Positions 18,948 through 52,307 of a stretch of DNA of 64,000 nt are shown piece by piece (the stretch's first letter is position 1; every line of letters starts with the position of its first letter). The position numbers and the translations under genes were made by a program. This DNA comes from Indolivaga capnocytophagoides DSM 22835 (GTDB lineage: Bacteria; Bacteroidota; Bacteroidia; Bacteroidales; Dysgonomonadaceae). The notes under the pieces are model-generated. The model did not search any database and had not been told where the DNA came from. It worked only from the letters and a program-made list of their open reading frames with translations. The stretch spans positions 62,001 to 126,000 of the forward strand of contig NZ_AUFL01000004.1 of assembly GCF_000426485.1 (NCBI RefSeq), given 5' to 3'.

Positions 18948-18959
18948 TTTGTTTTTTTT

Positions 18960-19110
18960 ATCTATAAGTAAAATGTTCTCTGAAGTCACAGACTTTTCTT
19001 GTTAAAGAGCGTTTTTTTGATAAGTGGACAATGTTTTTTTAGGGGTTTCGCAAGAAAAAAAGGTATCATTCAGAAAAGTGCAGTTTCTCTGTAACTTTTG
19101 TAACCTTTTC
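18960..19110 (+). repeat. Possible decayed copy of the terminase-gene element
   Basis: The left end ATCTATAAGTAAAA follows a T-tract and resembles ATCTATACTTAAAA at the two better copies. The right end TAACTTTTGTAACCTTTT resembles TTACTTTTGTTACCTTTT. No coding remnant is recognisable between them. The match rests on two short ends and may be chance. Together with copy B and the rplU promoter this accounts for most of the gap between tetR and rplU. Confidence 0.35.
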
Positions 19111-40428: not shown

Positions 40429-40464
40429 ATAGGGGATGACAATGAAGTCATCCTCTATTTTTTT
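40429..40464 (+). terminator. Intrinsic terminator after cydB
   Basis: ATAGGGGATGAC and GTCATCCTCTAT pair over 12 bp with one G-T, followed by seven or more T's. The terminase-element relic begins exactly at the end of this T-tract. Confidence 0.85.
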
Positions 40465-40643
40465 ATCTATACTTAAAAAATACACATTACAATTATGGCA
40501 AAATACACAGAAGAACTAGGCACGAAAATACACCGATTTCAAAGAAATGACAGATGATGCCCGTACCGATATTCGATAAGTAATGAGAATGAATAATGAT
40601 CAACAATTATTATTCACTGATCTTGTTACTTTTGTTACCTTTT
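40465..40643 (+). pseudogene. Internally deleted copy of the terminase-small-subunit element
   Basis: The left end ATCTATACTTAAAAAA and the start ATGGCAAAATACACAG (ATG at 40495) match the minus-strand copy at 49322-49983. After about ten codons (MAKYTEELGT) the sequence jumps to the part encoding KYTDFKEMTDDAR, out of frame. It then jumps to the region before and after the parent's stop (ATTCGATAAGTAATG) and the shared right end TTGTTACTTTTGTTACC. Two internal deletions therefore removed about three quarters of the gene, leaving a relic of about 180 bp like a non-autonomous element. The ORF from the ATG stops after 20 codons. Confidence 0.8.
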
Positions 40644-49321: not shown

Positions 49322-49983
49322 AAAAGGTAACAAAAGTAACAAGATCAGTGACCAATGATTGTAGTTATTATTCATTCCCATTACCTATCGAATGCCGGAT
49401 CGTAAGCAACCTCCGTCTCCGGAGAATCAGACTTGACTTTGAGAGCTTCTCGTCTTGCTTCCATTTCTTCTTCCGTGAAATTACCGCTGCCATTGTCTTG
49501 CAGAAATTGAAGTTGATCGGCTGCCTCTTGATTCTGTACTATGATTTCCCAGGGCACGCGAATGTTTTCCACTTTTTCTTCTATTTCACCTTCTTTAGCC
49601 ATTGCCATTTTCAGGGTCTTTTCATCTGCTGAATATTCTTTCATGGTTACCGTTTTTCCGGTCAGATATATTTCACCGTACTCGTCTACGGCATATTTAT
49701 AACGCGTTGTAGTTACGGTATAGCCATGCTCTAATCTTTGTTTGAGTATCTGTCGGGCTTTTTGAGCCAGCCGTTCGTCACGACCTGCACGGGCATCATC
49801 TATCATTTCTTTGAAATCGGTGTATTTCCGTGCCCATTGATAGAATGTTTTACGGCTGATGCTGTGCATTGTACAGATTTCACCCAATGTATACTCGTCT
49901 TGTTCTATTGCATCCGCTATTTTCTTGCCTAGTTGTTCTGTGTATTTTGCCATAATTGTAAAGTTTTTTTTAAGTATAGATAA
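49322..49983 (-). mobile_element. Element carrying the terminase-small-subunit-like gene
   Basis: On the minus strand it runs from ATCTATACTTAAAA, just after the T-tract of the lrgB terminator, through the gene at 49381-49953 to TTGTTACTTTTGTTACCTTTT. Both ends and parts of the interior are repeated at 40465-40643. There is no transposase, and no obvious target duplication was found. Calling it mobile is inference from the two related copies. Confidence 0.5.
49381..49953 (-). CDS. Orphan phage terminase small-subunit-like HTH protein
   Basis: A 190-residue DNA-binding protein. EYTLGEICTMHSISRKTFYQWARKYTDFKEMIDDA (about 20-54) is a helix-turn-helix like that of phBC6A51/terminase small subunits, followed by a helical region, a short beta hairpin (YKYAVDEYGEIYLTGK) and an acidic C-terminus. 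Terminase small subunits mark phage DNA for packaging, but no large terminase, portal or other phage gene is near. It may be a phage relic, a satellite gene or a domesticated regulator. A second, internally deleted copy is at 40465-40643. Confidence 0.68.
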   Translation of the reverse strand: MAKYTEQLGKKIADAIEQDEYTLGEICTMHSISRKTFYQWARKYTDFKEMIDDARAGRDERLAQKARQILKQRLEHGYTVTTTRYKYAVDEYGEIYLTGKTVTMKEYSADEKTLKMAMAKEGEIEEKVENIRVPWEIIVQNQEAADQLQFLQDNGSGNFTEEEMEARREALKVKSDSPETEVAYDPAFDR

Positions 49984-50020
49984 AAAAATCTAAATCCGAT
50001 TGTTGTTTGGATTTAGATTT
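49984..50020 (-). terminator. Intrinsic terminator after lrgAB
   Basis: On the minus strand AAATCTAAATCC and GGATTTAGATTT form a 12-bp stem followed by a run of T's. The terminase-like element begins right after this T-tract, the same position as at the cydB terminator. Confidence 0.8.
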
Positions 50021-52215: not shown

Positions 52216-52307
52216 TTAAGTATATGAAAATATTTAATGATATATCTTCAATTTATTACAAGCATAAGCCATTTACCTGCTAAGCAATAAAAAGGTCTGA
52301 GACCTTA
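52216..52307 (-). repeat. Long-form intergenic palindromic element (copy P)
   Basis: Minus-strand reading: AAGGTCTCAGACCTTTTTAT core at 52305 downward, then TTGCTTAGCAGG, a variable middle, and the tail GATATATCATTAAATATTTTC. It spans the gap between the SufT-like gene and lpxH and ends at the lpxH ATG. The tail is nearly identical to that of copy S. Confidence 0.78.

Follow-up and report, generated by a model that had tools for sequence, protein, structure and literature searches.

The stretch of DNA analysed here (the window) comprises 64,000 nucleotides (G000:C2:62001-126000) of the 4.38-Mb genome of Indolivaga capnocytophagoides DSM 22835 (G000). At 49322..49985, on the minus strand, it carries a complete cassette of 664 bp whose ends were set by genome-wide recurrence and which consists of a left motif (L), a gene resembling those of phage terminase small subunits (terS) and a right motif (R). 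The terS-like gene (49381..49953, minus strand) codes for 190 amino acids. L (TTTTATCTATACTTAAAAA; 49967..49985, minus strand) is situated about 30 nt before the ATG and also precedes scattered phage genes; its consensus, taken from 45 sites, is TTTTATCTATAnnnAAA. R (GTTACTTTTGTTACCTTTT; 49322..49340, minus strand) is composed of two 9-mers (GTNACYTTT GTNACCTTT) that form 9-bp direct repeats. The sequence TTTT is found at both cassette ends, and the left end may resemble those of Helitrons. The only other frames of at least 60 aa in the cassette are, judged by eye, short antisense ones.

A sequence-only reading of this stretch had pointed to a lone terminase-small-subunit-like gene between prfA and lrgAB, which the family matches given below bear out, and had placed the ends of the element to within a few bases. 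It had also seen no large terminase or other phage gene. This holds for the neighbourhood, where lrgAB and prfA flank terS on either side, but not for the genome, which encodes TerL, portal and capsid proteins elsewhere. The flanks do recur, as that reading had claimed, around a shrunken gene at 40 kb. This second unit (40461..40643, plus strand), located in the cydB-pyrG gap, is an inverted, internally deleted copy that retains L, the start of terS, an inner piece and R, and it is collinear with the cassette over 71 nt at 82%, 46 nt at 96% (the inner piece, within the gene) and 46 nt at 89% (the right end). Searches for R, exact or with up to two mismatches, bring the units of the window to three in all, the last being a gene-less L..R unit (18956..19109, plus strand) upstream of a co-oriented gene, both ends of which recur.

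The window protein scores 30.2 bits with the Pfam model Sf6_terminase (PF20901; cut-off 27) and matches a PHROGs terminase small subunit family (E 8.8e-6). Its AlphaFold model (mean pLDDT 73, pTM 0.44) contains a helix-turn-helix (HTH) with a recognition helix at residues 34-43, in which residue 35 is a lysine, a long helix (45-76) and two regions of β-strand (78-89 and 95-107). Foldseek pairs the model with Sf6 gp1 (3hef/4dzp) at a probability of 0.97-0.99 but at E values of 0.08-0.3, none of them reaching E ≤0.001. By family and modelled fold, the window gene is thus predicted to encode an Sf6-type terminase small subunit. It shares with Sf6 gp1 a score above the Pfam cut-off and the HTH fold, but differs from it in its extra C-terminal part, in belonging to a dispersed family and in its position away from TerL, since its neighbours are lrgAB and prfA and TerL sits on contig C1. 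Two Porphyromonas phage records annotated as terminase small subunit match TerS over 84 aa at 36%, and 11 viral contigs contain distant relatives; a plasmid search for TerS gave zero matches.

Copies of the cassette within and between genomes

The cassette family is strewn through Dysgonomonas-type genomes, with about fifteen copies of the gene and about a hundred gene-less versions. In I. capnocytophagoides a TerS protein search gives 16 matches, 14 with an intact reading frame of 182-229 codons and another two truncated at contig ends, while a DNA search gives at least 26 places (40 of 126 first-look candidates were scored). The R motif GTNACNTTTGTNACCTTTT occurs 174 times (65+109) in this genome and not once in a reversed control. 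In 400 kb of contig C1, a stretch chosen without regard to R, TTTATCTATA (up to one mismatch) lies within 700 bp upstream of all 23 R motifs (up to two mismatches) and downstream of only two of them, and most of these L..R units are gene-less. Contigs C1-C6 contain 63 R loci over 2.45 Mb, which by extrapolation gives about 110 loci in the genome. Pairs of these loci separated by 1-5 kb are absent, where 5.6 would be expected (P 0.002). An even spacing of R loci, as would befit regular packaging starts, was considered and discarded (CV 0.94 against 0.95 for random placement, P 0.51). The longest gap between exact R motifs (G000:C1:658821-881537; 223 kb, P 0.08) includes many of the scattered phage genes, and an R-like match (up to three mismatches) follows L at 701,894 within it.

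The ends of the L..R units are constant and their interiors are variable. Similarity to terS (E 0.01) is present in 14 of 14 intervals longer than 560 nt but in only 4 of the 78 shorter ones, where chance would give about one; these four are the 40-kb unit and three very short intervals. Gene-less units are therefore not recent deletions of terS. In many of them AAAAGGTAAC is found about 30 nt before R and is able to pair with the end GTTACCTTTT. Folding of 97 R units is only slightly better than that of shuffled sequences (mean z -1.2). A location of L after terminator hairpins was also rejected, since 14 of 58 L sites and 53 of 200 control sites are so placed.

Among the 14 intact copies the median dN/dS is 0.109 over codons 1-135 (91 pairs; median dS 0.89) and rises to 0.297 beyond codon 135 (47 pairs). 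With this ratio of about 0.1 in the core, a decaying phage piece, one of the origins that the sequence-only reading had offered, is contradicted for the intact copies; the others, a satellite and a domesticated DNA-binding protein, are both possible. Its view of the element as a repeated unit agrees with the 14 intact copies and the 174 R motifs, and the search that it had proposed for further copies bounded by the two motifs returned them in numbers: of the 84 TerS genes in the loci collected, 66 are preceded by L (up to one mismatch) at no more than 160 nt and 56 are followed by R (up to two mismatches) at no more than 330 nt, the latter figure being without a control. Homologues are thus found beyond prophages and with conserved flanks, and the 40-kb match is a real copy.

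TerS is present in 9 of the 61 genomes searched. Eight of these nine (6 to 178 copies) and one of the 52 genomes devoid of TerS (one copy) contain R in a slightly relaxed pattern. In the ninth carrier, G017, a broader R pattern matches 18 sites, with the AG form described below in both loci examined; one of its TerS genes (locus L069, contig C48), close to a contig end, has a partly duplicated N-terminal region. In a second set of 13 genomes, reached through TerS loci and overlapping partly with the 61, 12 have 11-506 R sites. Three TerS-negative genomes have no R sites, and reversed controls give 0-2 per genome. D. mossii, D. alginatilytica and D. hofstadii are among the named carriers, as are MAGs labelled Prevotella. 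The remaining genome of the 13, Dysgonomonas sp. 25 (G065; loci L144, L146 and L147), has TerS copies and zero full R motifs, with half-sites GTTACTTTT after two of the genes.

With respect to placement, the 20 units of the 400-kb stretch (17) and the window (3) occupy intergenic gaps, with one L end overlapping a predicted frame. The gene downstream of R, mostly at a distance of 30-460 bp, is co-oriented with the unit in 19 of these 20. In relatives, 46 distinct sites were compared: the downstream gene is co-oriented in 41 of the 45 with a usable gene, and L lies upstream of R in 36 sites and downstream in 8. The pooled figure is 60 of 65 (P 5e-13 against one half). The sites themselves are seldom shared. 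Only 6 of 67 sampled sites in relatives have a homologue among the 63 downstream genes of I. capnocytophagoides, three of them at 67% identity or more, where we estimate that full site conservation would give about half and chance about two. The prfA gap contains the cassette in I. capnocytophagoides, a gene-less unit with one-mismatch motifs in G002 and nothing in seven other relatives. The pyrG gap has units with differing interiors in I. capnocytophagoides and G004 and none in eight relatives (G005 was covered over 113 nt and G002 over 849). Two gaps common to two species each are somewhat above chance, and this counts to some degree for a regulatory role or for insertion hot spots. A regulon conserved as a whole is not supported, since the sites rarely precede the same genes elsewhere, the prfA and pyrG gaps notwithstanding. 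Both gaps are too diverged for filled and empty versions to be aligned, and neither a target duplication nor a clean empty site was found there.

Covariation of TerS residue 35 with the right motif

A typed R could be assigned to 51 of the 84 TerS genes, the other 33 being untyped. Residue 35, located in the recognition helix, is a lysine in 44 of 44 cassettes with the AC type of R, and a glutamate or histidine in 7 of 7 with the AG type. Since this residue separates the two types in 51 of 51 cases, TerS probably binds R, and covariation between a residue and a site makes sequence recognition likely. However, positions 64, 65 and 85 also separate the AC and AG groups, or nearly so, and the association may thus reflect lineage. 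The typed AG cases belong to two lineages, and G017 (E35, AG sites) was found afterwards as a third; residue 35 has therefore changed in just two or three lineages. One TerS gene with N35 is followed by a GTCAT..GTAAT site.

In D. hofstadii (G061) the two 9-mers of R agree with each other in 95 of the 100 sites listed (110 in all). The AG and AC types occur there in similar numbers, and the TerS loci found in this species are of the E35 form. The presence of AC sites with no known K35 TerS predicts a further K35 TerS subfamily in D. hofstadii.

Scattered phage genes preceded by the left motif

Between 607 and 776 kb of contig C1, amid host genes, L precedes genes for a second type of TerS, TerL, a protease/capsid protein, a portal and other phage-like proteins. 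The families represented in this scattered set are Terminase_3/3C, GP3_package (to which the second TerS belongs), Peptidase_S78_2 and Glyco_hydro_19, and PHROGs assigned the head proteins and the portal. We assigned the labels tail, tape measure and holin ourselves, and the large tail and tape proteins have no family match in Pfam or PHROGs. The phage genes were first encountered through L, and the G000 stretches searched for phage units were picked after L matches; for this reason the count of L was repeated on units drawn from a gene list of D. mossii that is independent of L. Of 12 phage units, grouped with the help of D. mossii homologues, 10 carry L in exact form at 18-51 nt ahead of a start, and allowing one mismatch brings the number to 11 (p182). 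The background within 60 nt of a start is 2 of 258 ORFs for exact L (one of them a terS) and 6 of 258 with up to one mismatch. A unit with a cI-like repressor lacks L, and the L of the gene for a sigma-like protein falls within its gene run.

A single 36-kb stretch of the D. mossii genome (19.8-56 kb of contig C10) has matches to 17 of the 20 query proteins. It contains a few host-like genes, a repressor and a replication-like gene, and no integrase was recognised in it by eye. Three of the seven occurrences of TTATCTAT in it are 33-36 nt ahead of starts. The phage genes thus occupy several loci in I. capnocytophagoides, rather than a unit prophage, and form a compact set in D. mossii.

TerL matches are found in 13 of the 61 genomes. 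Each of the nine TerS carriers has a TerL, as does every one of the 11 members of the Dysgonomonas clade (G000-G005, G010, G017, G023, G029 and G035); four of the 13 are devoid of TerS. TerL is solitary in G000, G001, G002, G004, G005 and G017, and L (up to one mismatch) precedes it in 8 of 10 genomes. G004 has a second, distant TerL (35%), and the matches of G018 and G019 (43-45%) resemble those of an ordinary prophage. G005 and G003 (62% complete) have TerL but neither TerS nor R. Distances between TerL proteins correlate with those of PyrG (r 0.87) and PrfA (r 0.64) over 45 pairs, and the comparison of G002 with G005 gives a dN of 0.040 and a dS of 0.76, a ratio of about 0.05. Among the phage TerL proteins listed, the best match shares 42% identity, compared with identities of 63-75% between clade members. 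These comparisons, which concern TerL only, suggest vertical inheritance under purifying selection. From its genes, the scattered set is a candidate gene transfer agent (GTA), that is, inherited phage genes through which fragments of bacterial DNA may pass from one cell to another.

The sigma-like protein (207 aa) is present in 12 of 17 genomes searched, including all 11 of the clade, a distribution nearly that of TerL. It has zero matches in Pfam or PHROGs; in Foldseek, ECF sigma factors rank first (probability up to 0.98, E 0.03 or worse). L with up to one mismatch precedes its gene in I. capnocytophagoides only, being absent in 10 of 10 relatives. In I. capnocytophagoides this gene belongs to a divergent module (G000:C1:607116-610516; loci L300, L405 and L274) together with a repressor, of S24 type by eye, and a replication-like gene, and D. 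mossii, G004 and G017 likewise have the repressor and sigma-like genes as a pair. The module looks like a control region retained from an ancestral phage.

Possible roles of the cassette family

The explanation that we tentatively prefer, while giving it somewhat less than an even chance, is that of a phage-derived packaging-specificity cassette, formed by TerS and its packaging site, that parasitises or serves a GTA-like particle. L would be a promoter or start signal common to the scattered phage genes, perhaps read with the ECF-sigma-like protein, and would drive terS. The Sf6-type TerS would then bind R at its own cassette and at about 100 gene-less L..R loci and recruit the inherited TerL, and the chromosomal DNA next to R would be packaged into the GTA-like particle, much as the TerS of PICIs redirects a helper phage. 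Cassettes so favoured would spread to new loci and turn over between species. This explanation builds on the anatomy and multiplicity of the cassettes, the purifying selection on terS, the co-occurrence of TerS with R, the covariation at residue 35, the location of L before phage genes and the way in which TerL tracks a housekeeping gene. TerS is also dependent in the expected sense, as it never occurs without TerL in the genome set and TerL sometimes occurs without TerS. The proposal that the cassette is a minimal GTA satellite made of promoter, small terminase and packaging site, so that packaging of host DNA into an inherited, scattered particle would begin at about a hundred addressable starts and not randomly, with a specificity set by one recognition-helix residue, must be considered doubtful.

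What packaging chiefly fails to predict is the co-orientation of the units with downstream genes, for which insertion targeting or selection on transcription could account. Also against packaging are the excess of gene-less units over gene copies, the uneven spacing of R, the TerS of Dysgonomonas sp. 25 without R, the TerL of G005 and G003 without TerS or R, and the lack of L before the sigma-like gene in 10 relatives. Moreover, the second TerS, of the GP3_package type, means that TerL may not need the cassette TerS.

The co-orientation and the position of R mostly 30-460 bp before a gene are what would be expected if TerS proteins had turned into transcription factors, with R as an operator upstream of about 100 host genes, and the use of the same gap twice, at prfA (G000 and G002) and at pyrG (G000 and G004), is in line with this. 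We consider such a role unlikely, since few sites in relatives have a homologous downstream gene (6 of 67), L and the tandem structure of R are left without explanation, and the long helix and β-strands that packaging TerS proteins have behind the HTH are retained. The differing occupancy of the prfA and pyrG gaps and the few downstream genes in common between species, together with constant ends, variable interiors and TTTT at both ends, could instead indicate a MITE-like transposable family in which terS is the cargo of the longest members and a trans-acting enzyme moves the L-to-R content into gaps upstream of genes.

This latter possibility appears rather improbable, though less so than the operator. 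No cassette examined contains a transposase, L and R differ from each other and are not terminal inverted repeats, and neither target duplications nor clean empty sites were found in the diverged prfA and pyrG gaps. Among Y1 transposases, the only type searched for, PF01797 is present in 5 of 10 genomes and absent from G000, G005, G017, G029 and G035; a Y1/RAYT enzyme is therefore rejected as the mover in I. capnocytophagoides. Furthermore, the terS copies are old and under purifying selection, unlike cargo, and the covariation at residue 35 links the protein to the ends. It is also conceivable, but very unlikely, that L..R units are small transcription units producing short RNAs, with L as promoter, R as a terminator-like hairpin and terS merely as the longest of them. 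The location of L just ahead of the start codons of phage genes and the pairing of AAAAGGTAAC with GTTACCTTTT would suit such units, but R units barely outfold shuffled sequences, their interiors are not conserved and a terminator does not need two 9-mers that agree.

The packaging cassette can be compared with several known systems. PICIs use their own TerS and their own recognition site to redirect packaging in a host that encodes TerL elsewhere. The cassette likewise has its own TerS and a candidate site, and its carriers always have TerL. However, it measures 0.66 kb and is present in many copies, terS is its sole gene-like frame, with no integrase, regulator or att site and no repressor, replication or capsid-sizing gene seen, and its TerL comes from the scattered inherited set and not from a helper phage. 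RcGTA and BaGTA are phage-derived gene transfer agents. The candidate GTA set described here shares with them phage-derived head, tail and terminase genes, apparently vertical, at several loci and with a possible regulator of their own. The cassette family has some likeness to REP/REPIN-RAYT systems, in which a single protein family is accompanied by short intergenic repeats numbering in the hundreds, but its partner is TerS instead of a Y1 transposase, is multi-copy and bears the repeat at one end, and the units are oriented to the downstream gene. We know of no repeat family in which the sole gene encodes a terminase small subunit and is accompanied by the probable site of that protein. Among the titles and abstract openings listed by searches of open-licence literature, none describes this repeat family or a Bacteroidales GTA. 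An excerpt of PMC12946183 calls known GTA terminases "typically non-specific"; against this description, the TerS genes and candidate sites are here multiplied in a cassette family.

If TerS binds R, the chromosome would carry a dispersed, addressable code for DNA packaging, alongside a candidate GTA of the Bacteroidales. Even if packaging were wrong, the genomes of this group hold oriented repeats between genes, in numbers of tens to hundreds each, that are tied to one protein family, and such repeats bear on the origin of REP-like repeats that have no known transposase.

A different dispersed repeat, AAGGTCTCAGACCT..TTATT, is also present in the window, where it occupies gaps close to the starts of genes at 918, 18929, 22855, 40731 and 58743 (plus strand) and at 52282 and 52713 (minus strand). 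It is sometimes followed by a AAATACTT.. block, is present too in the prfA leader of G002 and is possibly a leader element.
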